Below, piece by piece: positions 3,388 through 46,988 of a stretch of 46,988 bases of DNA (positions within the stretch are counted from its first letter, which is position 1; each line of letters begins with the position of its first letter). The DNA is from a virus. The notes below the pieces were generated by a model, which saw only the letters and a program-made list of their open reading frames with translations, was not told where the DNA came from and did no database searches. The DNA lies in IMG/VR virus record IMGVR_UViG_3300026518_000002, positions 1-46,988 of that record. One strand, 5' to 3'. The position numbers were made by a program, and so were the translations under genes.

Positions 3388-4941
3388 TTAAAATACTGTC
3401 GAATCCCTTCCATAGGAGTATGGGTCTTCTTCAAAAACTCCGTCCTCATGTGAGTATGCAACTGTGTCTTGCTTGCCAGGAGCGATCATACCTAGCTGTG
3501 TGAAGTTAGATAAACAGTCTATTACATCATCACGTCTTGCTTTACATTCTTTACGAGTAGTCATCTTCATTTCGTGGATAAGCTCGTCTATAAGAGTTTT
3601 GCAATGGTCATCTGGCAATTGTATTTTCTTGAGATGATGTCGTGGTGCAAGCGTAGCTATACGACTAATTTTCTTCTTACTCTTGTTATCTTTCATCTCA
3701 ACAAAGTTAAAATATAAGTTACGTCTAATCATTTCTTTACGTATCCACTCATTCATACTACTTTGAAAAGCTATCTGCTCAGCACCTACTTCTAGCGGTT
3801 CATACCTTCTGACAAATTCAAACAGTGTATCGATCCATCCTGACGAGTCTAACTCTCTAGAATGTATACCGTCAACTACCATCCAATCATTATTATTAGT
3901 AACACCGACAACAAGTATAACACCAAAATCTGAGTTCTTAGTAGCACTTGCATTAAAGTCAGTTGATATATAGTAGTTCATATTGTTCAAGTTCTTTTTA
4001 ACTTCTTTATAACTGAAAGTCATAAAGTCTTCATCTTTAAACATACGATCACTCTCATCCATAAGCTCTAACATATACTCTTGCATAAATCCGGAAGCAT
4101 CACCATCTTCTTTGTACTGCGAGTAAATATCCTTTACTACTTTAAACGGGAATCTATCTTCCCAAGCCCCAACAAACTCGTTCTCAGTTATGTTTGCCCT
4201 CCATGTAGATGCTATTGGCAGCTTAACTCTATTCCATGTATTGTTACGCATCTTTGTCAATACTATATCATCTTCATGCTGAGGAGTACCAATAAGTATA
4301 ACTTTATTAAACCCTGGTTCTAATGCAGGTAGAAAAGCTCTATTGAATCTTGTCTTAATCTCTTCACGCTCTATTTCTGATTTAGCATCATCTTCATTGG
4401 TAACGTCATCTGCGATTAGTAGTTGAGGTCTAATGTCTTTCTTCGGTCCACGTTTAGTACCACGAGGTGATTGCTTAGCTCCACGACCTACTAACCAAAA
4501 TGTTCTATCACCTATGGTTACTACGAGTTCATTCTTAACTTTCTTCTCTATGTTTATAAGTGCATCAATCTTAGGATTATTAATGATCTTAAGATAAACT
4601 GCGTCTACAAACTGTTTGACACCATTATCTTCAGAATCGCCTAGGAATAAGCAGTAGTTTACTTCTCCATCCATTCCAGGGAAAGTACCCATCATCATTG
4701 CATAGATAACTGCTAGTTCACTAGTAGTTGTTTTACCAACTCCACGAGAACATTGCAAAACATTTAAAGGACTATCTGCAAACAAACTGTCTAACATAAG
4801 GTAATGTATAATGTCACTCTTATTCTTTTCTGGGGCAAACACTTTCTGCCATTCAATAAACTTAATACTTTCTAGACTTGGTTTATATCCATCAGACAAA
4901 AGCTTATCATAGTCGGGATTTATTACATTTATTCTTGACAT
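3388..4941 (-). CDS. terL: Terminase large subunit
   Basis: This is the DNA-packaging motor and nuclease. At 517 residues it has normal TerL length. The ATPase half has a Walker A-like CSRGVGKTT (64-72), a Walker B LLIADD (173-178) and a coupling motif around ILIGTP (214-219). The nuclease half has an RNase H-like acidic motif, YISTDFNAS (D327), a second acidic strand VVDG (354-357) and a C-terminal RRDDVIDCLSNF with the last acidic residues. The start overlaps the end of the small-subunit gene by 13 bases. The Walker A lacks the usual second glycine position but is typical of phage terminases. Confidence 0.95.
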   Translation of the reverse strand: MSRINVINPDYDKLLSDGYKPSLESIKFIEWQKVFAPEKNKSDIIHYLMLDSLFADSPLNVLQCSRGVGKTTTSELAVIYAMMMGTFPGMDGEVNYCLFLGDSEDNGVKQFVDAVYLKIINNPKIDALINIEKKVKNELVVTIGDRTFWLVGRGAKQSPRGTKRGPKKDIRPQLLIADDVTNEDDAKSEIEREEIKTRFNRAFLPALEPGFNKVILIGTPQHEDDIVLTKMRNNTWNRVKLPIASTWRANITENEFVGAWEDRFPFKVVKDIYSQYKEDGDASGFMQEYMLELMDESDRMFKDEDFMTFSYKEVKKNLNNMNYYISTDFNASATKNSDFGVILVVGVTNNNDWMVVDGIHSRELDSSGWIDTLFEFVRRYEPLEVGAEQIAFQSSMNEWIRKEMIRRNLYFNFVEMKDNKSKKKISRIATLAPRHHLKKIQLPDDHCKTLIDELIHEMKMTTRKECKARRDDVIDCLSNFTQLGMIAPGKQDTVAYSHEDGVFEEDPYSYGRDSTVF

Positions 4942-5621
4942 GATGGTTGCTTTTGTATTAGAGTCTTAGCATCAAGATCACCACTGTTTAGTTTTCCCAT
5001 AGCAGTATTAGCTATATTATCTAGAGCTCTAGTAAACTCTGAGATGACAGCTGCAGTCCCCTCTCCTATATCTTCTACGACAGTTTGATCTTTCTTAGGC
5101 ATTATGTGCCCTAGCAACTTATCAGCAGATTCCATCTGTATTCTTTCGTTATCTGAATGTGCAACCAATTCGCTAAGCTTTCTAATGGATTGATGGACTT
5201 CTCGCATATATAGTAGTTCGAGTGGAACTTCTGCTCTTGCCATAAACTTCATAACTAATTTACCATGAGCATAGATACTAGCTTTACCTGTTATTGCTCC
5301 ATCCGTTTTGCCAACACATCTTTCCGGAAATGTTTTCCGATAAGCTGCTGACTGTGTGTCTCCAGCCATTCTATATCTTGTAAACTCTAAAGCCGCTAGA
5401 TACTCAGGTACAGTATACTTGCCTGTCTCTAATATCGATTTAGTATCTACTATACCTACAAGTATATCTTCTTCATCTAAATAACCCTTATCAGATATAC
5501 CTTCTATTATCCTATCTATATCTGGATTATCAAATCTGCTATGTATCTCTTTAAGTGGTTTATTACCTATCTTCTTATATATCTTCATTACTTGCTCTTT
5601 AGGTCTTTCTTTTATTATCAT
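4929..5621 (-). CDS. terS: Putative terminase small subunit
   Basis: This 230-residue protein is encoded immediately upstream of TerL and overlaps it, the classic TerS position. Residues from about 90 to 125 resemble the helix-turn-helix region of small terminases: the AGDTQSAAYRKTFPE stretch followed by a GKASIYAHGK segment. A helical oligomerisation region follows. Small subunits recognise the packaging site and activate TerL. The start at 5621 is preceded by AAAGGACA. The assignment rests mainly on position and the HTH-like pattern, because small terminases diverge strongly. Confidence 0.72.
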   Translation of the reverse strand: MIIKERPKEQVMKIYKKIGNKPLKEIHSRFDNPDIDRIIEGISDKGYLDEEDILVGIVDTKSILETGKYTVPEYLAALEFTRYRMAGDTQSAAYRKTFPERCVGKTDGAITGKASIYAHGKLVMKFMARAEVPLELLYMREVHQSIRKLSELVAHSDNERIQMESADKLLGHIMPKKDQTVVEDIGEGTAAVISEFTRALDNIANTAMGKLNSGDLDAKTLIQKQPSCQE

Positions 5622-5877
5622 AGTTGTCCTTTAACTGTTTTTATCATTGTAACATATATTAGTATATTTATTAAATTTATAAATTCTTTCTTATATCTGT
5701 TGATATTACTTTATATATTAGTAATATTTGGATATACTTTAACAAATGATTCTGTTTATACTACTTTTAATAATGGTTAGTTCCTGCTACGTCACTAATC
5801 ATTATTAAGAGTATACGTTTGGAGTAAGACGTAGCAATCTCCCTCCTCTAATCTTAAATCAAAACTGCTGTACTAAA
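5622..5877. promoter_or_regulatory. Divergent control region between late and early blocks
   Basis: This non-coding stretch is very AT-rich and separates the terminase operon (minus) from the early block (plus). A plausible plus-strand sigma70-type promoter is TTGATA (5700-5705), a 16-base spacer, then TAATAT (5722-5727). Further TATACT-like hexamers occur on both strands. The 3' half (5772-5836) holds a hairpin and two copies of a CTACGTC motif, annotated separately. I see no convincing gene on either strand. Confidence 0.5.
5772..5836 (+). promoter_or_regulatory. Hairpin with loop complementary to downstream sequence (pseudoknot/operator candidate)
   Basis: AATGGTTAGT (5772-5781) pairs with ACTAATCATT (5794-5803), ten pairs including one G-T. 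The 12-base loop contains TGCTACGTC (5785-5793), which is exactly complementary to GACGTAGCA (5828-5836). In RNA this allows an H-type pseudoknot in the early leader. In DNA it gives two inverted CTACGTC half-sites, and a third related site lies at 6264-6270. It may be either an RNA element or a repressor operator. Confidence 0.45.
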
Positions 5878-6099
5878 ATGACAACTGAAGAAATGATAGC
5901 TGCCTATCTTTCTACAAACGAAGTAACTGCCGTAGACTCACTAGATGAGAAGAAAGCACTAACTGGGGGTAGAGATACAATAAAACAAGATTACTATGGA
6001 AATATAACTGGTCGTGAAGAAACAAACAAAGTGAAGTATCTTAAAGCGAAAGCTGAGATGAAACAGCTATCTGCTCTGATCAAAAGCAAAGCTCACTAA
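5878..6099 (+). CDS. Small unknown early protein (73 aa)
   Basis: This is the first plus-strand frame after the divergent control region. The protein is charged and helical, with no membrane segment and no recognised domain. There is no clear ribosome-binding site ahead of the ATG, so the start is uncertain; a later ATG at 5893 is possible. Its last 20 bases overlap the 3' end of a convincing minus-strand small gene (6080-6226), so the two could interfere or regulate one another. Confidence 0.5.
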   Translation: MTTEEMIAAYLSTNEVTAVDSLDEKKALTGGRDTIKQDYYGNITGREETNKVKYLKAKAEMKQLSALIKSKAH

Positions 6100-6226
6100 C
6101 ATCAGCTTCACTTGGAGGGTGTAGAAATAACTGCATGTAATCCCATATCTCTAAATCACAAGACATCCTACCAGACATATATTCACGGCACTCATCCACC
6201 GACTGAGGTAATTCAATAAACTCCAT
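6080..6226 (-). CDS. Small unknown protein with its own strong promoter (48 aa)
   Basis: The frame starts MEFIELPQSVDECREYMSG and ends ADVSELCF. The ATG at 6226 follows a near-perfect ribosome-binding site, AAGGAGATCTT, and a consensus-like promoter lies just upstream at 6244-6273. The protein is acidic and cysteine-containing, with no known motif. It is antisense to the end of the 73-residue plus-strand gene and points toward the terminase operon. Its signals are better than those of many larger genes here. Confidence 0.65.
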   Translation of the reverse strand: MEFIELPQSVDECREYMSGRMSCDLEIWDYMQLFLHPPSEADVSELCF

Positions 6227-6479
6227 AAGATCTCCTTCATTAAATTATATCATTAAATTACTGACGTAGTCAAGTAATGATAATGAACGAAATTTAATGA
6301 GTATATAAAATAATAATATTATGTAAGGTAGTAGTACCTACCCTTCACACATTGATTTACCCCTCCCCCCTACCCATTATGAGTGTTTTAGTCTATACAT
6401 TATATATAGGGTTTGGTTTTAGCGTCGTTTGGTGTATGAGATCGTCGTTCAAGAGATGATGGTCATCAAGGAGTTTGTC
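6227..6479. other. Non-coding control region with inverted repeat and C-rich tract; possible replication origin
   Basis: TCATTAAATT (6250-6259) and AATTTAATGA (6291-6300) form a perfect 10-base inverted repeat around the minus-strand promoter. An AT-only stretch follows (about 6300-6325). A small hairpin follows (GGTAG/CTACC around 6327-6342), then a striking tract of 13 C in 16 bases (6360-6375), very unlike the AT-rich surroundings. Two GTCGTT copies lie at 6424-6429 and 6445-6450. Easily melted DNA beside a biased tract at the strand switch could be an origin; that is inference only. Confidence 0.35.
6244..6273 (-). promoter_or_regulatory. Consensus-like sigma70 promoter reading toward the late block
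   Basis: Read on the minus strand: TTGACT (6273-6268), an 18-base spacer, then a perfect TATAAT (6249-6244). Initiation would fall near 6237, about 11 bases before the ATG of the 48-residue gene. The spacer carries the CTACGTC motif and a dyad (ATTACT-GAC / GTC-AGTAAT), so a repressor could bind over the promoter. This is the best promoter match I found in the window. Confidence 0.75.
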
Positions 6480-6608
6480 ATGGTAGACATAGCGGTTATG
6501 AGTATAAGTGTGTTAGTTGGATTAATTGGAATTATAAATTCTATATTTTCAGTATTCAGCAAAAAGAACATGAAAGTTGCGAAGAAGATTCGTAAACAAT
6601 TAGATTAA
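6480..6608 (+). CDS. Mini membrane protein, family copy 1 (42 aa)
   Basis: The ATG follows AAGGAG with correct spacing. One transmembrane helix (about residues 5-26, starting AVMSISVLVGLIG) precedes a short lysine-rich cytosolic tail ending KVAKKIRKQLD. Two further plus-strand mini-proteins at the far end of the early block (21190-21318 and 21318-21434) share the layout of one N-terminal helix and a tail of the form K-x-x-K-K-I-x-K-x-hydrophobic. Function unknown; membrane interference or superinfection roles are only possibilities. Confidence 0.7.
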   Translation: MVDIAVMSISVLVGLIGIINSIFSVFSKKNMKVAKKIRKQLD

Positions 6609-6622
6609 TTAAAGGATAAACA

Positions 6623-6847
6623 ATGAGTTTAAAAGATTTTAAAGCAATGGTAGCATCAGAAGTTAAAGTAAGTAAAGAGTATAAGTCTTACTTAAGTGTA
6701 GCACAAGAAGAAGGCATGTCATGGTATGCAGCTTCTAAGATGGTTATGGAGTATCTTAACGATGGTAAGAAACTTACAGCTAATGATTACAAAGAAATCA
6801 ATAAGTTACGTAAGTGGTACAATGAGTTATCAGAGGAAGAAGCATAA
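6623..6847 (+). CDS. Small unknown early protein (74 aa)
   Basis: The ATG follows AAAGGAT and starts 14 bases after the preceding mini-protein, so the two are probably co-transcribed. The protein is lysine- and glutamate-rich and predicted helical, with aromatic residues in the middle (MSWYAASKMVMEYL) and no recognised domain. Its stop codon sits inside a stable hairpin followed by a T-rich stretch, so it probably ends a short transcription unit. Confidence 0.72.
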   Translation: MSLKDFKAMVASEVKVSKEYKSYLSVAQEEGMSWYAASKMVMEYLNDGKKLTANDYKEINKLRKWYNELSEEEA

Positions 6848-6870
6848 GCTTCTTTCTTTATATTTTTAAA
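6835..6870 (+). terminator. Probable rho-independent terminator
   Basis: GGAAGAAGC (6835-6843) pairs with GCTTCTTTC (6848-6856) around an ATAA loop, with one G-T pair. The run TTTATATTTTT follows directly. The stem includes the end of the 74-residue gene. The U-tract is interrupted by two A residues, so termination may be partial. Confidence 0.6.
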
Positions 6871-6890
6871 TTTTAAGTAATAGTATAGGT

Positions 6891-6918
6891 TGTTTCTAAC
6901 AGAAACAGGCAGAAACAA
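6891..6918 (+). promoter_or_regulatory. TGTTTCT/AGAAACA dyad plus third half-site (operator or RNA switch candidate)
   Basis: TGTTTCT (6891-6897) is followed after 3 bases by its reverse complement AGAAACA (6901-6907). A second AGAAACA follows at 6911-6917. The first arm can pair with either copy, so this could be a 17-base operator with an extra half-site or a two-state leader hairpin ahead of the 238-residue gene at 6939. Confidence 0.45.
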
Positions 6919-6938
6919 GATTATAAAGGATAATAGAG

Positions 6939-7655
6939 ATGAAAACAGAAATTAAGACAGACGGTATAAGTAACTTCGCAGTTAGTAATGACTATAGTAA
7001 TTACACAGAGTTAGGTGGCAGAATGGTTCAGCGAACACCGGTTGAGAATCATCATGACTTAATGGTAATAGAGAAAGAGCTATCAGCAGTTGACAATGAT
7101 CAGTTCAGAAAGAGTTTGTATGCAGTACAAGGAGACAGAACAGAGTTCTACTCAGGAGATGATAAGATCAAGCTATCAGTTAGCAGTCAAGGTAAAGTGA
7201 AAGCAAAGTTAAAAGGTGTTGAGATCAGCGGAGTAAAGCGCACAGCAGTTTATATGTTGATATTAGAAACATGTCATGTATTAGATACTAATGCAAATGG
7301 AGATTGGAATATGTATGTATTCAGTCTTAATGGTAAATTCTACAATATAGGTTTTCTAGATGAAAATATAAATGCAAACTTCATGTCAAAGTATAATGAG
7401 TTCTACGACAACATAAACAATGAAGAGTATTATAAAGAGCTATTCAAGCAAAGAACAAAGCACTCGACAGATAAAGTAGCAACTGAGTTACATTCAGATG
7501 TATACGGTGATGCAGTGTCAGGGCTAGGTAGTATAGTAGAAGATCAGATAGAAGAGGATCTACTACAAGCATTAGAGATGCTAAGAGCATATAAGGATAC
7601 ACCACAGTTTACAGATATAAAAGCAGATTTAGAGGAGATAGTATGCAGCGCATAA
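6939..7655 (+). CDS. Unknown early protein (238 aa)
   Basis: The ATG follows AAAGGATAATAGAG. It opens a new transcript after the terminator and dyad at 6835-6918. The protein is soluble, acidic toward the C-terminus, and likely mixed alpha/beta; no catalytic or DNA-binding motif is visible. It is the largest gene at the front of the early block and is followed by a chain of tiny coupled genes, so it may be an early takeover protein, but this is inference from position only. Confidence 0.78.
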   Translation: MKTEIKTDGISNFAVSNDYSNYTELGGRMVQRTPVENHHDLMVIEKELSAVDNDQFRKSLYAVQGDRTEFYSGDDKIKLSVSSQGKVKAKLKGVEISGVKRTAVYMLILETCHVLDTNANGDWNMYVFSLNGKFYNIGFLDENINANFMSKYNEFYDNINNEEYYKELFKQRTKHSTDKVATELHSDVYGDAVSGLGSIVEDQIEEDLLQALEMLRAYKDTPQFTDIKADLEEIVCSA

Positions 7656-7714
7656 AAAGATTCATAGATAAGATAGAGCATAAGTTCTATCTTCTATCTA
7701 TAAAAATATTTTAG
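7643..7714 (+). CDS. Tiny basic peptide (23 aa)
   Basis: This frame starts inside the end of the 238-residue gene, with AGGAGATAGT upstream. The peptide begins MQRIKRFIDKIEHKF, a basic amphipathic helix ending in hydrophobic residues. It is the first of a chain of tiny genes with overlapping or touching stop and start codons. It might be a coding mini-protein or a translational coupling leader. Confidence 0.4.
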   Translation: MQRIKRFIDKIEHKFYLLSIKIF

Positions 7715-7723
7715 GAGTTATCC

Positions 7724-7840
7724 ATGACTAGAGAAGAAGTATTCACAGCATTACATGATGTACTAAGCAAAACAGGTTTAGAGTTTAAAGAAAGACATGA
7801 CTTACTAGTTAAGTTCATGTCATTAATATATAAGGATTAA
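7724..7840 (+). CDS. Small unknown protein (38 aa)
   Basis: The ATG at 7724 follows TTAGGAGTTATCC, a strong ribosome-binding site. The product is a short helical peptide (MTREEVFTALHDVLSKTG at the start) without a recognised domain. It begins nine bases after the previous tiny frame and ends one base before the HTH gene at 7842. Confidence 0.6.
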   Translation: MTREEVFTALHDVLSKTGLEFKERHDLLVKFMSLIYKD

Positions 7841-7841
7841 C

Positions 7842-8081
7842 ATGAAAATAAATATATTCGGGTATACCCTCAGTTTAACAGAAACTGTAGTGCCAAAGAA
7901 GAAACACGTTAGAGTTGGCTATTCAAGTAAGCCTTGGTCGAATGAAGACACAGCTAAACTTATTGCTATGCATAAAGATGGTAAGAGTAATGTAGGCTGT
8001 GCCCGTATGATAGGTAGAACAACAAATAGCATAAATGCTAAGCTATGGAAACTAAGAAAAGAAGGAATTATAGATGCTTAA
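7842..8081 (+). CDS. Small helix-turn-helix DNA-binding protein (79 aa)
   Basis: Residues about 32-75 form a homeodomain-like/SANT-GcrA-type HTH: a tryptophan-led first helix (WSNEDTAKLIAMHKDG), then CARMIGRTTNSINAKLWKLRKEG as turn and recognition helix. Such small proteins are frequent phage regulators. It starts one base after the preceding stop. It is a candidate to bind the CTACGTC or TGTTTCT sites upstream, but no direct evidence links them. Confidence 0.72.
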   Translation: MKINIFGYTLSLTETVVPKKKHVRVGYSSKPWSNEDTAKLIAMHKDGKSNVGCARMIGRTTNSINAKLWKLRKEGIIDA

Positions 8082-16968: not shown

Positions 16969-17589
16969 ATGTTTAAATTTAATGAAGAAGCAGCAACAGC
17001 AACAAGTGGATCAGCAGGATCAAAAGTATTAGATAGTGGGGTTCACCCAGTAACTATCAACACAGTTAGCGAGGCAATCGCAAGCACAGGAACGAAAGGC
17101 TTTGACTGGAGTTTACAAATTGGTGACTCTAAATATCCTAACATGGTTTATGGAATGTGGCATACAAAAAGTAATGGTGATGACATCAAGATGAACTCAT
17201 CAGTTATTCAGAACCTTATGGGTCTAACTGAAAAGAAGATCACTATGTATGATAAGACTATAGAAGTCAAAGATGGAACTAAAGTTGTCAAAGCTGTTAA
17301 AGAATTCGATGGTTTTAAAGGCTACGTAGCAATTGTTAAAGTGTTAGACTTCTACAATAGTGAAGTACGTGAGAAGAATGAGATTCGTGCGTTTATGAAC
17401 GAAGATAAGAAGACTTACGCAGAAACTGTTAAGAACTCTGATGCTAAGCAATTCGCTTACTACACAGCTAATCTTAAAGATACTAAAACTGAAGCATACA
17501 AGAAGGCAGAAGCTAATGGAGAAATTGGATCACAAAGCAATACAGAAACTGAAGCGGAAAGCACAGAAGAAGAAGGCAGCTTACTATAG
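16969..17589 (+). CDS. Putative single-stranded-DNA-binding/recombination accessory protein (206 aa)
   Basis: The ATG follows AAAGGAAAAAAGTAA. The protein begins with a beta-rich region (MFKFNEEAATATS, then DWSLQIGDSKYPNMVYGMWHT) and ends in a long acidic, polar tail (EAESTEEEGSLL), the hallmark of SSB proteins that recruit partners by their C-terminus. Similar proteins lie beside phage Sak4 ATPases. No exact OB-fold motif is recognised, so the assignment is moderate. Confidence 0.5.
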   Translation: MFKFNEEAATATSGSAGSKVLDSGVHPVTINTVSEAIASTGTKGFDWSLQIGDSKYPNMVYGMWHTKSNGDDIKMNSSVIQNLMGLTEKKITMYDKTIEVKDGTKVVKAVKEFDGFKGYVAIVKVLDFYNSEVREKNEIRAFMNEDKKTYAETVKNSDAKQFAYYTANLKDTKTEAYKKAEANGEIGSQSNTETEAESTEEEGSLL

Positions 17590-21435: not shown

Positions 21436-24400
21436 CTAGTCAACCTCAGGCGTTCCGACGGGACCGCTACCGCTGCTCCATAGTTTTGGAGTGGCACCTA
21501 TACCTGTAGTATGATTTTTTAGTAGATCAGAACTTACAGTATTAGTTTCAAACATAGAAGATATATTATAATTGTTTGCTGACGATATATTTACATAAGT
21601 GTCAGGTCCAACTTTAGTCATTCCATGTTCCCTCATCCAACCATCAGACCCATTTTCAGGTAGCACATAGTATAAAGATTCTCTTGCAGCTATCATTCCA
21701 GCAAACATAGTCATAAGACCAGCTGAATTCTTATTAAGCGCATATCTTGTAATCTTAGGTATATTGTTAAAGTATTTCATGAATAGTACAACTTCATCTG
21801 CAAGTGACATCACATCAGTTAAGTTCTCTGCATAAGTAGGGAAGGCTAGCATAGTTTCTTCCATAGCTTGATCTGCAGATAACCCTTTACGTTTTTGATG
21901 TCTATAGAATGTAAGCTTTTGCTTTACTTCAGTTGAATCAAATAAAGAAGCTAAAGTATCCCCAGCTTTAGTACCTTCCATAAAGTTAGTAGACCTAATA
22001 TCATTTTCTAGTCCTGTATTAGACATACCAGCTAGCACATCAATGAATTGGTTTTGGTTAACCTTACCATTAGTTCTTACAGCATCTCTCATCATTGTAT
22101 CATGAGCACCTACCTTATACATAAACTCGTATATGTCAGGGTATTTAGATCTGGCTACTCTCATACCATCAGTTGACGCTATATTCATAAAGCTGCCTAT
22201 GTCTTTCATAGACTTGTCATTCTCAGTTAAGATCTTAGCTAGTGGCATCTTAGTAGTAAACGCAACTGTAATGTTATTAGCTACAGTGTTATTGATGTAT
22301 GATTTAAGTCTTGTAGTAAGCACTTTACTTTTAGCCATTCCTATAATACCTTGCATACTATTTACTATAGAAGCAGCATACTTATTAGTAACATCAATCC
22401 CCTTAGTACCGAATATATTGTGTGCATAACGTTTGTCTACAACATAATTAACACCGTTGTATCTAAATGTTCTTTCCCCTTTAGTAGCTTCAAATGAAGG
22501 TTTAATGATGCCTGCCCCTTTCATGCTAGCAACAAAATCATTGTTAGCTTTCTTACCAATACGGTTATGTATTAATGATCTGATGTTAGACATATATGCA
22601 TCAGCAACGTTCATCGAATAAGCATTCTGATTATTAATCATATCTGAATTCTTTAATGTAATCTCATACTTGCCTTGGCCAATCTTATTAACATTGAAGT
22701 CTTTAGTGTATCCTATGAACTCATCTTCTTTATTAGCATGTCTATAAAATAGTTTGTCATCAGATACTTTAATGTCCCTTGTATTGATCTTCATACTGTT
22801 GGTATTAGAATCAGCTATAGCTAAACCTTCTTGCTTACCAAGTGATGCTTTAGCCTCATCTATGACAACCATAAAGTCTTTTCCTATTCTATGGACTATG
22901 TTATCTTCATTCACTTCAGCATTTGTAGGAACTATCTTCAAAGGTCTATTCTTAGCTGATGCTTTATTAGCTGGGTTAAAACCAAACTGTCTAGTACTAA
23001 TACCCTCAGATTCAAGTTGTCTTGCAACCTTGCCCCATGAGCCAAGCATGTACTCAACTCCTTTAGGATTTTGTTGTATCATAGCACCGAGTTCATCTAC
23101 ATCAAGTTTACCATTTTCCATAGCAGCTTTAAGCCTTCTAGACATAACAGAACCGTCCATTTGACGTTGTAGTTTAGTCTGAACATCTAATGGAATATCA
23201 TCTATAAGATTTCTTACATCTTCAGGTTTAAGTTTTAGATCAGATATTGCTTTGTTATTAGATATAGTAGTGACAAGACCGTCTATAAAATCCTTAGTAT
23301 TAGTTGAAGAGAAGATAGCTCTTTTACCGTCTATCTGACTTATACCTTCTCTATAGAACTGCTCATCTGCAATGTGTTTAGCCTCCATGTGCATAAGTTT
23401 TTTGTCTTTGACATAAGCAGTTATCTCTTTCTTTAGCTTACCAACCTGATCAGCTTTGCTTTGTAATATACGGTTAAGTTCGTCTTCGACTTCTTTAATC
23501 TTAGTTAGGTGTTCATTTTTAACGTCTTGTTCAAGTCTACCGCCTTCACCCTCAGCGTCTATCTTATCTCTAAACTCGAGTGATTCAGAACTACCACTTG
23601 TAGTGATATCTGAAGTACCTTTACCACCACTATACTGTTTATTTTGGAATTCAATTACTCTTTTAAGTTCTTTAATACGCTTGTCATATTTAATGTCAAA
23701 CGTTTCTTCCAGCTTAGCATTAAGTTTCGAGGATATAAATCTAGTTATAAGTTCATCGCCATTAGCTTCAAATCGTTTAGGGTCGAATGTCTTTTTAAAA
23801 CTACTAGTGTCACTTCCTCTTAGAAAGTCTGCAATCTCTGATACTTTTACAATGTCAAGTAGTTGGTAACCTCCAGCATTAATGAACTCGCCCATAGATT
23901 CTAATTGTTTGTCTGACATATTGCCAGAGTTCTTTTCAAACTCAGATCTTATCTCAGCTTCCATTTGCTGCATACGTGCTTCTACAGCTTTAAGCTTATG
24001 AGAAGCTGCAATAGAAGTAAGGCGTTTAGAATCATAAGCAAACATACCATTAAGTGTTGGAGATTCCCCAACAAGATCATTAACAAAATCATCTACAGAT
24101 TTAAACAATGTATTGTGCTTAGATAAAGTATCTTTAATCTTAGTAACAGAATCTTTACCTATATTAGATGCATATACTTCGGAGATACTTCTATTAGCCC
24201 ACTTAGCAAAACCTGAGTGAGGATTGTTTAGAGTATTAACAACGTATGCTTCAAACTGTGCTGCATCTTTGTTGTCTAGTACTCTATCAGTTTGTACTTC
24301 AGATGATTTCATCTTCTTAACAAACATCTTAGGATTGCCTTCTAGCAGTCTTCTACGAACTGTGCTAGCCATAGCAGTTAGGTAACTTTCGTCTCTCGAC

Positions 24401-27400
24401 AGTTTATTCTTACCTGTTGCATCAGCAAATTGGTGAGCAAGTTCGTGGAGAACAGTAAGCATATTACTAGCATTAAGCTCACCTCCATTATTGAGGTATA
24501 TATTACCGCTTTCATCTATAAACCCACGTTTACCTTTAGCAATGTCAGATATACCTGGTATTGCATCAGTTGTATATATCTTTGTATCTTGTAAAAACCC
24601 AGATTCATTATTCATATACTTAGATGCATGCTTAGAAGGCTGGAATAATACCTGAGGTCCAACATCAGGCATTTCACCGGCAGTAGTAATAGTAGAGTCA
24701 ACGAACTTCTTCTCTACATCTGTGTATTTAGGAGTACCTTCGAGAGTATCTTTATAATTACGTAATAGAACATCATTAACGTCATGAACTGATACACCAG
24801 ATTTAGTAAGCTTATCTATATCATTACGTACAGTTACGGCTGCTCTGTCCACTAGCTGCTTAACCTTATCATCACCTATGGTTGCTCCGAACTTATCGTT
24901 AATTATATCTTTTATAGCGTTCTTATTAACCGTTATTTCCCCATCTTTAATCTGGAATAGGTTACTAGCTGCTCTACTAGAATACATATCTGTAGAAGTA
25001 ATGTGTGTAAGACCATCATCAGTTGTTATTAGTGTACTTTTTACACTACCGTGTTTTGTAAGTCCTGCTAACATATCTGCTTCTGCTGCGTCTATCTTGT
25101 AACCATTATTTATATAGTTGGTATAAGCATCTATTTGTTTATTGAATGGGTCACTGCCCTGACGGGTGCTTAGCTCTTTAACATTATTATATACCATTAC
25201 AAAGTCTTTATCAATAGCTGCTTTTGTATCGAGTGCGGCATAAGACTCTTTATAGGTAGTGCCTTTCTCAGAAGCTTTCTTTTTAATGTAAGATTCAACA
25301 TCTGCAGCTTTTTCTGCACCGGTTTTAATTCTAGTACCTTCATCTCCAGTAATATGTTCAGCGTTATATTTTTCGCCTTCTTTCTTTTTACGGTTAATAT
25401 ATTTGTGTGCTTCATCTATACTTGTAGCATCATTGCCTGTAATACGTTTGTATTCTTCAAGCACATTTTTGGTATCTATAGTATCATTAGCATAGTGCTT
25501 CTTAACAGGTTCAAGAGCATCTTTAAGCTTGCTCTGAGTATCTCTAATCTCTGATAACTCATCACCGCGCATTTTTATCTCTTCCATCTTGTCTTTACGA
25601 GCTTTGATATCCCCATAGCCCATCTTGTCAAGGTCTTCTTTAGCAGTTTTAAGTTCAGCCTCTTTAGCTGTTATATGTCCATTAAGTGCGGAATGCATCT
25701 CTCGTATATCTTTTAAACTGTTTGTACTACCAATATCCTTACCTTTTTTACTCATAAATGATTTAATAGCCTTGTTAGCTTCATCCATAAGATTTGATAC
25801 AGTACCATAAGTAATGTCAGGCTTTTTAACTTCAGCTTCTGCTTTAGCCTCTATAACAGCTTCATCGTCAACAGCTTTAGTAGTATTAGAGTTTTCTTTA
25901 TAATTTTCAAAAGAGTCTTTAGCTGTTTTACGCAGCTGTTCACCAGCTATCTCATGTAATCTTTTTTTATACTCTTTATTGAATTGTTTTTTAGACAACT
26001 TACCATTAGAAAAATCGTCTTTTAAACTATTAAGTAGCTTATCATCATAAGCGGCTTCTTTAGCTGCCTTAACTGCTTCTTCTTTAAATTGGTTAAGCAC
26101 TGCATCATCAGGCTTAGTTTTTCCGAAGTAGTCTTCTGCTAAATTACCATATCTATTAGAGTATAAAAGCTTATCTGATGGTGTATCTTTAAATATTTTA
26201 TCTAAAGTTGATTCATTAGCTTTTATAAAGTTATCTTCTGTTTTGCTAAAAGCAGATGAATCGCTTGACCTTGTAAGCTTAGATTTAGGTTTGCGTGCAC
26301 TAAAACCAGCAGTATCAATGATCTCTCTAGCGTACTCAAGTGCATTATTTTCATCTATCTTAACACCTTTATACTCTTCTTGAATCTTCATCATCATGTC
26401 ATCAATAGAATCTTTATCTGATGATATACTTTCAAGATGTTCTCTAATAGCTTTGTATGGTTTAGAATCTTTGCTAAGGTCTAAAGGTCTTCCTTCGTCC
26501 ATAGCAGTGTATAGGGATTCAACTTCAGGGCTTTCATCCATAAACTTTAAGTTCTGGTTTTTAAGATCTTTAATATCTGGTTGTGTTTCAGAAGGTTTCT
26601 TCTTTCCTTTAGCACCACCATTTAAACTGTTAACTATATAGTCTAGATCGGAATCACTGGCTTGTCCAGTTCGTTTAGCCTCTTCAAATGATATATATTC
26701 ATCAGTTCTAGCATCTCTTACTTCTATATCTTTAGGATTGAAAGTAGCTATACCATGTTTATTCTTTTTAATAGGAACTCTAGTAGCTTCTAAGTCCAGC
26801 CAGTCAACACCATTATCATCAGTATATTGCTTACCTTGATTAGCATCAATCTTTCTAGTAACATATTCAGAATCGAATCTAAGATCTTTACCTTTGTCTA
26901 TAACTTCTCTAGCACCAGATAAAGCTTCAGTTTCGTCAACAGCAGCCTTTGCAACTTTACGGTTAGCAAATTTTGCCATTGGATAACCAAAAGCTAAACC
27001 ACCACCAAGGTTCATAGCAGCAGAAGCATAAGGATTAAAACTTTCACCGTTATCTTCTACCTGAGAACGTATAGCATCGTAACCAATACCCATAGGAGTA
27101 GCTACAGTTTCTTGTGCTAAGTTTTCACCAAACACAGTTTTAGGTGAATCAAATGAAAGTTTCTTATTAGCAGTTTCTAGAGCATTAATTCTTGCTCCAT
27201 TATTAATTGGTAGGGAAGCTTCCATAGGCCCGTAAGCCATACCAGATAATCTATCCATAGCTGTTAAGTTCTCTTGAATAGCTTTTCTATTACCGATACT
27301 CTTAGCGATACTACCAGCACCCCGAACGGCCCTAGAACCTATCTTAGCAGCAGCTCCCCAAGCTGGGAGTAGTGTAGCAGCCTCACCAACGAATTGTCCT

Positions 27401-27684
27401 GTGCCACCCATTAAACCTGTATTATAATTAGTATTCTTTTCTTGCATGCCTTGTATACGTTGATCTTGTAATGATTTATCTCTCTGAAAAGCAGCAGGTA
27501 ATACTAAAGAATCTTCAGTACCTTTTTGAACACCTTGCCAGAAACCTCTACCGCCTTGCTGAGTTTGGACTTGTCCTACGTCCCACCAATTAGTATCTTC
27601 ATTACCGCCTGCCTCATAAGAATCAAGCATACCACTAGTATCTTTTAGTTGTATATCTTCTATATCTGGTAATTCTATATCCAT
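21436..27684 (-). CDS. Giant virion/polyvalent protein with zinc metalloprotease motif (2,082 aa)
   Basis: This is the longest gene. The N-terminus is glycine-rich with an amphipathic segment (LMGGTGQFVGEAATLLPAWG, about 92-111). A zincin motif, HELAH, lies at residues 1080-1084 inside MLTVLHELAHQFADATG, preceded by a GNIYLNNGG strand, as in metallopeptidase domains of phage polyvalent proteins. The C-terminal part (FPTYAENLTDVMSLADEVVLFMKYFN) resembles the large polyvalent protein-associated LPD38 type. Long stretches between are coiled coil. Probably an internal virion protein injected with the DNA. I find no RNA-polymerase motifs. Confidence 0.7.
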   Translation of the reverse strand: MDIELPDIEDIQLKDTSGMLDSYEAGGNEDTNWWDVGQVQTQQGGRGFWQGVQKGTEDSLVLPAAFQRDKSLQDQRIQGMQEKNTNYNTGLMGGTGQFVGEAATLLPAWGAAAKIGSRAVRGAGSIAKSIGNRKAIQENLTAMDRLSGMAYGPMEASLPINNGARINALETANKKLSFDSPKTVFGENLAQETVATPMGIGYDAIRSQVEDNGESFNPYASAAMNLGGGLAFGYPMAKFANRKVAKAAVDETEALSGAREVIDKGKDLRFDSEYVTRKIDANQGKQYTDDNGVDWLDLEATRVPIKKNKHGIATFNPKDIEVRDARTDEYISFEEAKRTGQASDSDLDYIVNSLNGGAKGKKKPSETQPDIKDLKNQNLKFMDESPEVESLYTAMDEGRPLDLSKDSKPYKAIREHLESISSDKDSIDDMMMKIQEEYKGVKIDENNALEYAREIIDTAGFSARKPKSKLTRSSDSSAFSKTEDNFIKANESTLDKIFKDTPSDKLLYSNRYGNLAEDYFGKTKPDDAVLNQFKEEAVKAAKEAAYDDKLLNSLKDDFSNGKLSKKQFNKEYKKRLHEIAGEQLRKTAKDSFENYKENSNTTKAVDDEAVIEAKAEAEVKKPDITYGTVSNLMDEANKAIKSFMSKKGKDIGSTNSLKDIREMHSALNGHITAKEAELKTAKEDLDKMGYGDIKARKDKMEEIKMRGDELSEIRDTQSKLKDALEPVKKHYANDTIDTKNVLEEYKRITGNDATSIDEAHKYINRKKKEGEKYNAEHITGDEGTRIKTGAEKAADVESYIKKKASEKGTTYKESYAALDTKAAIDKDFVMVYNNVKELSTRQGSDPFNKQIDAYTNYINNGYKIDAAEADMLAGLTKHGSVKSTLITTDDGLTHITSTDMYSSRAASNLFQIKDGEITVNKNAIKDIINDKFGATIGDDKVKQLVDRAAVTVRNDIDKLTKSGVSVHDVNDVLLRNYKDTLEGTPKYTDVEKKFVDSTITTAGEMPDVGPQVLFQPSKHASKYMNNESGFLQDTKIYTTDAIPGISDIAKGKRGFIDESGNIYLNNGGELNASNMLTVLHELAHQFADATGKNKLSRDESYLTAMASTVRRRLLEGNPKMFVKKMKSSEVQTDRVLDNKDAAQFEAYVVNTLNNPHSGFAKWANRSISEVYASNIGKDSVTKIKDTLSKHNTLFKSVDDFVNDLVGESPTLNGMFAYDSKRLTSIAASHKLKAVEARMQQMEAEIRSEFEKNSGNMSDKQLESMGEFINAGGYQLLDIVKVSEIADFLRGSDTSSFKKTFDPKRFEANGDELITRFISSKLNAKLEETFDIKYDKRIKELKRVIEFQNKQYSGGKGTSDITTSGSSESLEFRDKIDAEGEGGRLEQDVKNEHLTKIKEVEDELNRILQSKADQVGKLKKEITAYVKDKKLMHMEAKHIADEQFYREGISQIDGKRAIFSSTNTKDFIDGLVTTISNNKAISDLKLKPEDVRNLIDDIPLDVQTKLQRQMDGSVMSRRLKAAMENGKLDVDELGAMIQQNPKGVEYMLGSWGKVARQLESEGISTRQFGFNPANKASAKNRPLKIVPTNAEVNEDNIVHRIGKDFMVVIDEAKASLGKQEGLAIADSNTNSMKINTRDIKVSDDKLFYRHANKEDEFIGYTKDFNVNKIGQGKYEITLKNSDMINNQNAYSMNVADAYMSNIRSLIHNRIGKKANNDFVASMKGAGIIKPSFEATKGERTFRYNGVNYVVDKRYAHNIFGTKGIDVTNKYAASIVNSMQGIIGMAKSKVLTTRLKSYINNTVANNITVAFTTKMPLAKILTENDKSMKDIGSFMNIASTDGMRVARSKYPDIYEFMYKVGAHDTMMRDAVRTNGKVNQNQFIDVLAGMSNTGLENDIRSTNFMEGTKAGDTLASLFDSTEVKQKLTFYRHQKRKGLSADQAMEETMLAFPTYAENLTDVMSLADEVVLFMKYFNNIPKITRYALNKNSAGLMTMFAGMIAARESLYYVLPENGSDGWMREHGMTKVGPDTYVNISSANNYNISSMFETNTVSSDLLKNHTTGIGATPKLWSSGSGPVGTPEVD

Positions 27685-43521: not shown

Positions 43522-44260
43522 CTAGTCTCATCCATATTGCTGTTTGTGCTTCACCTGACTTTCTCTGAGCTTCAATCAACTGTGCCTTAGTCAAGCTAAC
43601 TGCCTCATTATCTGCACTCATCCACAGCGTAACTTCTGTATCATCCATCACTGAACTTGCATTATTCATTCTACCCTGTGCTAACTCATCACCATCTAGT
43701 CTTGTTCCATCAGCTAACACCACTATGATTGCATCTACTTTAGCCTGTCTCATAGTCTTGTAGTATGTTCTATATTCACTATCACTAGCCTTGAAGCCTG
43801 CTATATCATGAGCTGTATCATAATCTGGACAAGTCCAACCATCCAGCCATTGGTCAAACGTAAACGTACACCCTTCTGGCTCATAAGATTCTGGAACAAC
43901 AGGCTCATTACCTATCTGGTTACCTTCTTCAGAATATATCGGCTCGCCACCGCTCTCTGGTACATATGTACAGTAATTATACTCAATAACTACTCTTTTA
44001 TAACCATATAGTTCTGCATACTCTTCTTGACTTAACGGTTCTCCAACAGTTGAATCTATATAGTCTTGGTATTGTTCAAACTCTTCATCTACTGTTGGCT
44101 CTCTATCAAATGGATAAATAGCTTCATACTCATCTCTCTTAGCTTGTGTCTGCTTAGCACATTCTACTTCTTTATAGTGCATATCAAGTGAGGAGTCTAC
44201 TAAACTCTCCCACTTCAATCCTTTCATCTGTGCCCGTGCTCTTATTAAATGCTTACTCAT
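43514..44260 (-). CDS. Fibre-associated protein with DUF4376-like C-terminus (248 aa)
   Basis: The C-terminal segment (KVDAIIVVLADGTRLDGDEL, later EVTLWMSADNEAVSLTKAQL, about 172-230) matches DUF4376, found in phage tail-fibre assembly or tail proteins. The N-terminal half is acidic and proline-rich. The end of the giant fibre gene shares a base with its start, so it may be its chaperone or attachment protein. Confidence 0.68.
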   Translation of the reverse strand: MSKHLIRARAQMKGLKWESLVDSSLDMHYKEVECAKQTQAKRDEYEAIYPFDREPTVDEEFEQYQDYIDSTVGEPLSQEEYAELYGYKRVVIEYNYCTYVPESGGEPIYSEEGNQIGNEPVVPESYEPEGCTFTFDQWLDGWTCPDYDTAHDIAGFKASDSEYRTYYKTMRQAKVDAIIVVLADGTRLDGDELAQGRMNNASSVMDDTEVTLWMSADNEAVSLTKAQLIEAQRKSGEAQTAIWMRLDG

Positions 44261-46988
44261 TATCTATCTCCTTTGAATACACCAAGTCTCTTCATAGCTA
44301 CTGTTGTCTTGACTGTAACTCCGTTTAAATCTATAATAGTCCCGTTGGTTAATTGTTGAAACGTATTAGTAGTGCCATCATATGCTCCTGCATTAGATAC
44401 CATTTCTTCACCACTTACTGCTAAACACTTCTCATTGTTTGTGGTGTCTATACATATCATAGTGAAGTATTTAGATGCTGGTGATACTTCTGCATCTAAT
44501 ACTATTGTGTTATGTTGTGGTGTAGTAAAAACTCCTATGTGTCCAATTAATTCCCAGCTTGGCTCAACTATTGAAGACATAGCAGCTGTCCAATTAACAA
44601 GTTCTGTTACTGTGTAACACCATACCTCGTTATTTCTGGATGGTAAATATGCAATCCTTCCACTGAATAAATCACCATCATCATTAATTATTCCATCATA
44701 TCCATCGTCATAAGCTCCTAACTCAGCATTTTCTAAAACCTTACTCTCTAAACCATTACTACCATTACCTACACTTACTTTATCAGTTATAGCATTAGTT
44801 ACCATAGCACCTTTATAGATACTGTTAGAGTTATTACCTACAACTTTATTAGATATATACTCTATAAGTAGTGGTGTTGATTGGTGTAATGGTTTATTAC
44901 GAGTAGTAGGACTAAACATAATCAAATCTCCAACAGCAGGTGCTGTGCTAAATGTAGCTGTATTTGCTATAGTGTCAAATGCAGGAGCTACTATACTCCA
45001 AGTAGCTCCACTATCTGAACTTTGTAATACTTGATTAATAGCAGTTACTTTTCTACTTAGTTTAAATGTTGTCTTAGTACCGTCAGGAATATTACTTGTT
45101 CCAGACTTACCAACTAATAAAGAATTAAATGGTATTGATTTACCACTTGCTAGTCTATTTTTCCAGTCTTGAGGATAGTTTGCAGGGTCACCTACAACAT
45201 CTATACTTAGGTTACTATTTGCTGTTAGTAGAGAGTTTGATTTTTTAGTATATATAAAATCAACATCATCACCTATAGCAGTAGTATTGCTTTCAAGCAT
45301 ATCACTTGTAACTTCTTTTATATCACACCAATAATCACCTAGTTTTACTACATATCCAGTTGCATATGTATTATCAGTATTATTTAGAATATAAAATACA
45401 TCACCTATACTAATTCCTTCATCAGCAATTTTAGTAATATCAGTTGAACTACCTAGATATATCTGAATTTCTCCAACTGTAGTATTTCTATAGTACTTTG
45501 AGTCGTGTGGTGTTTTTCTCTGTATAGTCTCAACACCTCTCTCTAATCCACTATCACTCAATAGTTTAGTAGACTCTATATCTAGGTTAATATCATCTGT
45601 AGTGTATGTACCTACTCCTACTATTCCTCCATTTGATTGGTTGTAGATTTTATCGTAGAATTTACTGTCTGGTCTTCTTGTGTATGAAGGGTTGTCTACA
45701 AACCCTATCTTACCTATGTTAGGGACATAACCAACTACTGAGCTATCTGCAATGGCTCGTTCTGTACATGCCTCAAATGTTGATGTGATGTTAGACCTAT
45801 ACCATGTCTGTATGCCTGTACTGATAGGGTCATGAGGTAATGAGCATCCATGATTATTATACACTGGATGATAAGCACCAGCATTTAATCTCTGAACTAC
45901 TCTTAAAGAAGTTATCTCATCTACACCATCAGAGTATAAACCATTGTCTAGTTTACTACATCCTTGTGCATTAGCTATGTCATCTGTACTCATATTCTCA
46001 TCGAATAGTGTAATACCTTTGAATGTTTTATAACCTGTCTTTGTATACCCAATTACATCATATCTAGTAACAGCATCTAGCACTTGAAACTTATTTATAT
46101 CAGTTAGTAAGTCTCCTGCTGTAGTATCTGTAATAGCTTGGTGTATATCATCTACTACTCTTACTGATATATTATCTATATCAACTACAGCGGTATTATT
46201 ATAAAACCCAAAGTTAAACCATACTGCACCAGTTACATTCGCTTTCCATACAAAGTACTTTGGTGTGGCGTATGGGTCACCTGTGTAATAGTCATTAGAG
46301 TTACCTGCAGATGAGCCTATTCTTACATACTGGACTTGTACATTTGAGCTTATTATATAATCAATGCCTGATATAACTGAGATTTGTTGTGACGCAAACC
46401 CATATGTATTAGTTACATCAATATGCAGTTTACCTACACTAATGCTAAGTGTAGAATTACTAGCTATCCACCCACTAGTATCTACATCAAATGTACCATT
46501 AGTAACTAACTCATTCCCACTAACAACTATATCACCTTTAGTATGAGCTGTCTGAGTAGTAACTCCATTAATCTTATCGTCTAATAGCTCATCACTTGAT
46601 CCAGGAGCAAAAGGTGCTAATGGTAGTTCAGCTTGAGGTAGTTCTTTTACTGAGATGTTGTCATAGCTTTGCTCTGTCGAGTTAGTATCACCTCCATGGA
46701 TAATAAGTACAAGATAACTTGTAGTATTAATAGCTGTAAATGTAAACTCTAATGTTTCATATTCTTTTCTTAGAGTACCATTATACATATTGTATAGGTC
46801 ACCGCTATATGTGTCTGTTGAATTCACTGTTACACCAAAAGGTGTGCCATCATTAGAGGTTAACATTTGTACAGAACAAGTGTATGTCTTACCTGCTTGT
46901 GTTGGTATCATTTGAGTAGTATACCCAGATGCTAAGCTACTGTTCTTGATGTATATCTTCTCATCTCTAACTGATAGTATAGCACCTC
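44260..46988 (-). CDS. Giant tail fibre / receptor-binding protein, C-terminal part
   Basis: This is the continuation of the minus-strand frame that starts at 2299 across the contig junction; the apparent ATG at 46911 is internal (residue 751 of the wrapped protein). A second carbohydrate-binding-like module starts near residue 882 (ELVTNGTFDVDTSGW), a close copy of the one near 706. The following beta-rich region with many N, T and S residues ends in a distinct C-terminal domain at the stop, 44260, which would be the receptor-contact tip. The protein is probably the side or main fibre. Confidence 0.8.
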   Translation of the reverse strand, partial: GAILSVRDEKIYIKNSSLASGYTTQMIPTQAGKTYTCSVQMLTSNDGTPFGVTVNSTDTYSGDLYNMYNGTLRKEYETLEFTFTAINTTSYLVLIIHGGDTNSTEQSYDNISVKELPQAELPLAPFAPGSSDELLDDKINGVTTQTAHTKGDIVVSGNELVTNGTFDVDTSGWIASNSTLSISVGKLHIDVTNTYGFASQQISVISGIDYIISSNVQVQYVRIGSSAGNSNDYYTGDPYATPKYFVWKANVTGAVWFNFGFYNNTAVVDIDNISVRVVDDIHQAITDTTAGDLLTDINKFQVLDAVTRYDVIGYTKTGYKTFKGITLFDENMSTDDIANAQGCSKLDNGLYSDGVDEITSLRVVQRLNAGAYHPVYNNHGCSLPHDPISTGIQTWYRSNITSTFEACTERAIADSSVVGYVPNIGKIGFVDNPSYTRRPDSKFYDKIYNQSNGGIVGVGTYTTDDINLDIESTKLLSDSGLERGVETIQRKTPHDSKYYRNTTVGEIQIYLGSSTDITKIADEGISIGDVFYILNNTDNTYATGYVVKLGDYWCDIKEVTSDMLESNTTAIGDDVDFIYTKKSNSLLTANSNLSIDVVGDPANYPQDWKNRLASGKSIPFNSLLVGKSGTSNIPDGTKTTFKLSRKVTAINQVLQSSDSGATWSIVAPAFDTIANTATFSTAPAVGDLIMFSPTTRNKPLHQSTPLLIEYISNKVVGNNSNSIYKGAMVTNAITDKVSVGNGSNGLESKVLENAELGAYDDGYDGIINDDGDLFSGRIAYLPSRNNEVWCYTVTELVNWTAAMSSIVEPSWELIGHIGVFTTPQHNTIVLDAEVSPASKYFTMICIDTTNNEKCLAVSGEEMVSNAGAYDGTTNTFQQLTNGTIIDLNGVTVKTTVAMKRLGVFKGDR
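46863..46988. repeat. Direct terminal repeat, right copy
   Basis: This is an exact copy of bases 1-126. It lets the sequence be joined end to end; base 46862 would be followed by base 1. Confidence 0.93.

Follow-up and report, generated by a model that had tools for sequence, protein, structure and literature searches.

H-type pseudoknots, in which a hairpin loop base-pairs with nucleotides beyond the hairpin, occur in bacterial leaders such as riboswitches of the SAM-II and preQ1-II types. Two mRNAs offer the closest described parallels to the locus analyzed here. The tisB +42 mRNA carries a 5′ pseudoknot that functions in ribosome standby, with stems of nine (S1) and five (S2) pairs and a sequestered ribosome-binding site ∼100 nt away (PMC7708055). 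The leader of T4 gene 32 contains a pseudoknot operator within a phage mRNA, at which protein nucleates to bring about repression (PMC3014915).

The virus record, analyzed over its whole length of 46,988 bases (the window), is N4-like. Besides a Sak4-like protein and SSB, it encodes the genes by which Schitoviridae (N4-like phages) are recognized, namely N4-like TerL (∼31–33% identity to the best phages among the matches listed), gp69, portal, major head protein and primase. Schitoviridae have three RNA polymerases, including a virion RNA polymerase (vRNAP) of ∼3500 amino acids, a DNA polymerase and genomes of 59–80 kb (PMC7650795). Neither a vRNAP-like sequence nor a DNA_pol_A match was found in the record (46,988 bp, possibly incomplete), which may represent a 47-kb N4-like phage without polymerases of its own. 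The slot of the N4 virion RNA polymerase is occupied by a 2082-residue protein with a HELAH metalloprotease-like motif (21436–27684, minus strand), for which a phage match was absent. By eye, a long leftward frame (minus strand) apparently leaves the left end of the record (1–2300) and perhaps resumes at the right end (44260–46988); circular assembly, opened within a tail gene, may have produced the record.

The element lies between the gp69-like gene and an ORF of 73 residues, adjoining the packaging genes. As the preliminary description had proposed, this is a divergent region: the gp69-like gene on the minus strand faces away from the ORF on the plus strand, as do gp69 and gp70 of N4 near the right genome end. 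The N4 region (EF056009) likewise has gp69 opposite a small gene read rightward, close to the right end of the genome; gp70, however, is a 103-residue frame of different sequence with a Shine-Dalgarno-like AAAGGA, and the N4 leader has a fold z-score of −0.78. The features of the locus, in window coordinates, are:

3388–4941, minus strand: TerL, N4-like
4929–5621, minus strand: gp69-like gene (phrog_2109), N4-like, divergent from the ORF at 5878
5646–5674, minus strand: candidate promoter of the gp69-like gene, TTAATA-17-TACAAT, with TG preceding the −10 box
5710–5738, plus strand: candidate promoter, TTTATA-17-TATACT, weak (9/12), in an AT-rich stretch
5762–5781, plus strand: Stem 1, 5′ arm (20 nt)
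5785–5793, plus strand: predicted Stem 2, 5′ strand, TGCTACGTC, within the hairpin loop
5794–5813, plus strand: Stem 1, 3′ arm; two of its pairs with the 5′ arm are G·U on plus-strand RNA and A·C on minus-strand RNA
5814–5833, plus strand: competing nested hairpin, 5814–5820 with 5827–5833, loop GGAGUA, unable to coexist with Stem 2
5828–5836, plus strand: predicted Stem 2, 3′ strand, GACGTAGCA
5837–5877, plus strand: tract of 41 nt from the putative pseudoknot to the start codon, its last 20 nt without a Shine-Dalgarno match
5878–6099, plus strand: ORF of 73 residues at the N4 gp70 position, with coding-like codon usage, mostly helical (single-sequence prediction)
6080–6226, minus strand: ORF of 48 residues that immediately follows the best sigma-70-like promoter; good Shine-Dalgarno sequence, coding score not decisive
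6244–6273, minus strand: the window's best sigma-70-like promoter, TTGACT-18-TATAAT with TG; third CTACGTC at 6263–6269
16969–17589: SSB-like gene

The first two repeat copies are located at 5785–5793 (plus strand) and 5836–5828 (minus strand), 34 bases apart, exactly where they had been placed, and the first does sit in a hairpin loop with its complement downstream: TGCTACGTC falls inside a 12-nt loop and its exact complement occupies 5828–5836. The hairpin, initially given as ten pairs, actually comprises 20 contiguous pairs (5762–5781 with 5794–5813), 18 of them Watson-Crick and two G·U. Plus-strand RNA has the potential to form an H-type pseudoknot of 20 and nine pairs with loops L1, L2 and L3 of 3, 0 and 14 nt; at the sequence level, the hairpin loop is complementary to outside sequence, as this type demands, and the loop lengths pass a crude reach check. 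The GGAG of the nested-hairpin loop falls in pseudoknot loop 3.

There is strong support that this pairing potential is non-random, and it is far stronger than the preliminary description had suggested. The 20-pair hairpin is the longest of the entire window; the maxima of 40 dinucleotide whole-window shuffles were 11–19 pairs. H-type candidates were scored by summed stacking, with no loop or pseudoknot penalty, a measure that ranks candidates and is not a folding energy. By this score the candidate reaches −44.8 kcal/mol, the strongest value on either strand, followed by −29.0 at the next distinct place (plus strand) and −24.7 at the best place on the minus strand. The best score in 40 whole-window shuffles was −34.2, and none of 2000 regional shuffles (5745–5877) attained −44.8 (best, −25.2). 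RNA fold z-scores were −3.7 and −3.95, and we estimate the chance of an exact 9-nt complement of the 12-nt loop within 60 nt to be ∼0.002.

Interleaved inverted repeats in DNA yield the identical pairing potential, which counts against an RNA reading. The sequence nonetheless points to an element that works as plus-strand RNA, because both non-Watson-Crick pairs (n = 2) are G·U on plus-strand RNA and A·C on minus-strand RNA; the hairpin amounts to −19.4 kcal/mol on the former and −15.9 kcal/mol on the latter. A search of 4900–7900 against 4227 Rfam families, up to an E value of 5, returned no relevant match, pseudoknot riboswitches included. An intrinsic terminator was rejected, as a T-run after the stem is absent on both strands.

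The ORF at 5878 has a higher coding score than all 158 null (out-of-frame) controls. Its start, for which the codon is assumed, shows the weakest Shine-Dalgarno match of the 45 starts compared, with an anti-Shine-Dalgarno energy of +0.8 kcal/mol versus a median of −5.8 kcal/mol for the other 44; an alternative ATG at 5893 gives −1.7 kcal/mol. Because a strongly structured leader precedes the start with the poorest Shine-Dalgarno match, a translational role is suggested. We tentatively read the pseudoknot as a cis-acting translational leader of the 73-residue ORF, either a standby element for the ribosome/S1 or a protein-bound operator, an explanation that we hold to be quite possible without calling it probable. 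What was computed directly is the complementary pairing with its statistics, together with the coding-like codon usage of the ORF and the missing Shine-Dalgarno match. The candidate plus-strand promoter is a weak match (9/12), which counts against this explanation. No PHROG match to the 73-residue protein was found, and its structure prediction (one sequence; mean pLDDT of 75.8, mostly one long helix) offered no clue to function.

Could the CTACGTC copies be a DNA operator set instead? A regulator of the phage or the host would then control leftward transcription through copies over the −35 regions of the promoter at 6273–6244 and of a weak one at 5837–5810, with a third site below this weak promoter. 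In favor of such an arrangement, three exact copies fall inside 480 bp, compared with ∼2.4 expected in the entire window; each of the two leftward promoter matches has the motif 12–13 bp ahead of its −10 box; and copies 1 and 3 have in common the sequence CTACGTCASTAAT, which matches exactly nowhere else in the window. Copy 3 (GACTACGTC) sits inside the window's best promoter; it is found at 6271–6263 (minus strand), one base off the 6272–6264 originally assigned, and extends into the spacer, as had been noted, but also overlaps the −35 hexamer. The bare 7-mer count is only modestly unusual (six in the window versus 2.4 expected). The operator set nevertheless seems unlikely to us: it accounts neither for the 20-pair hairpin that encloses copy 1 nor for the G·U bias, the promoter over copy 2 (5837–5810) is just a 9/12 match of a kind found 18 times versus 14.9 expected in the scanned region, the TGAC-N3-GTCA dyad of copy 3 shows no enrichment, and other gene starts in the searched window have no cluster of exact copies. 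Of the early/late switch envisaged in the preliminary description there remains copy 3 in a convincing promoter, whereas copy 2 belongs to a weak one and copy 1 to a hairpin loop. The 7842 HTH protein that it proposed for binding tests is small, with weak profile matches; nothing ties it to CTACGTC. RNA and DNA roles could coexist.

A rather unlikely account, in our view, confines the 20-pair hairpin to a part in the stability or processing of mRNA, by protecting the 5′ end or as an RNase III site, or in pairing with antisense transcripts that run leftward, the 9-nt complement being coincidental. The hairpin by itself already beats every shuffle and leftward promoters could give transcripts across it, but a loop complement of such low chance probability, directly abutting the stem without a spacer, argues against coincidence. 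Clearly improbable is a role of the interleaved repeats in DNA replication or packaging, with, for example, the hairpin read as a single strand or the site bound by terminase: although the repeats adjoin gp69/TerL and the genome end predicted at 6318–6376 is only ∼500 bp away, the conserved N4-like end element is located elsewhere, without these repeats, ∼50 N4-like loci yielded no comparable long hairpin paired via its loop at the equivalent position, and the N4 leader has no unusual fold.

The end element itself is conserved upstream of gp69 in many N4-like loci and reads roughly GTACGAnnGCAGTAnTTAC, ∼25 nt, TACCCCCCC (alignment A3; e.g. L099:6472–6543). A sequence-only model (R1) with 18 training loci recovers it in eight held-out loci with E values of 1e-5 to 3e-11, some of these loci being perhaps close kin of the training loci. 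In the window, the best place for this model is 6318–6361 (E value of 0.075; second best, 0.19), which adjoins the sole C6 run. The N4 record starts TGGTGGGGCTACACCCC...CACCCCCCCCC, and mapped read ends of IME11 begin GTGGCTGGGGCTACACCCGG (PMC3896407). These sequences point weakly to an end element at about 6318–6376, and we infer a genome end near 6326–6345. The 48-residue ORF (6080–6226, minus strand) is ∼100 bp from the predicted end. Promoter hairpins of the N4 virion RNA polymerase are small and have a 3-nt loop; this candidate was rejected, as the element is unlike them and no vRNAP was recognized. A DnaA-box origin was likewise rejected, with no enrichment in the window.

Searches with TerL, MCP, helicase, a 238-residue protein and the 73-residue protein yielded no relatives bearing the leader region. 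Two close phages emerged with TerL (75% and 68% over the alignment), and their gp69 upstream regions (L015, L016) carry other genes; the MCP search recovered fragments belonging to these two samples as well. The only close relatives found were fragments from two samples (L015, L016, L095, L096). The helicase, 238-residue and 73-residue protein searches found no close relative, and GTDB contained distant TerL only. For 5622–6480, no similar DNA was found in the plasmid collection, and the phage collection gave only weak matches of 35–45 bp (E value of 0.9). The arrangement TGCTACGTC-N(20–50)-GACGTAGCA occurs in 10 stretches of IMG/VR, which we took as chance; the hairpins around these copies have at most seven pairs, compared with 20 here. 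By eye, positions 1–500 of L015 contain runs of a repeated, DnaA-box-like TTATTCACA and AT-rich repeats upstream of gp69, beside winged-helix-like ORFs, a possible replication origin.

If the pseudoknot is a translational leader, a plus-strand transcript would begin upstream of 5762, with the pseudoknot near its 5′ end. The loop of the 20-pair stem would pair over nine bases with 5828–5836, and as the 3′ arm of Stem 1 follows Stem 2 with no intervening nucleotide, the two stems might stack coaxially. The predicted effect in cis on translation of the 73-residue ORF might resemble that in tisB mRNA, through ribosome/S1 standby, or that in T4 gene 32 mRNA, through a site at which a protein nucleates to repress. 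The 5814–5833 hairpin rivals Stem 2 for the same 3′ strand, so that two states may be possible. It would be a considerable surprise if a bistable pseudoknot leader replaced the Shine-Dalgarno sequence altogether, with the ORF translated in one RNA state only and the same DNA motif serving the strongest leftward promoter. If true, this would be a second phage leader, unrelated to the first, in which the stems are longer and a Shine-Dalgarno sequence is missing, and it would provide a clean system for the loading or blocking of ribosomes by pseudoknots.

Riboswitches of the SAM-II and preQ1-II types share the H-type fold with this element, which differs in having no relevant Rfam match and a downstream gene that is not a known metabolic gene. 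The tisB mRNA resembles it in having an H-type pseudoknot near the 5′ end, in which the apical loop of the 5′ hairpin pairs downstream, followed by a small ORF with a ribosome site that cannot be used directly; the stems here have 20 and nine pairs instead of nine and five, and the ORF lacks a Shine-Dalgarno match instead of having a sequestered ribosome-binding site. With the T4-type gene 32 leader it has in common a phage mRNA leader with a coaxially stackable H-type pseudoknot before the start codon, followed by a weakly structured tract. In contrast to T4, the stems are much longer, the UUAA(A) repeat series is absent, and the gene below encodes the 73-residue protein and not SSB, the SSB-like gene lying elsewhere, so that this is not a gene 32 autoregulatory leader. 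Taken together, our best reading from these comparisons is that the element would function most like the tisB standby structure or the T4 gene 32 operator, while being a member of neither.
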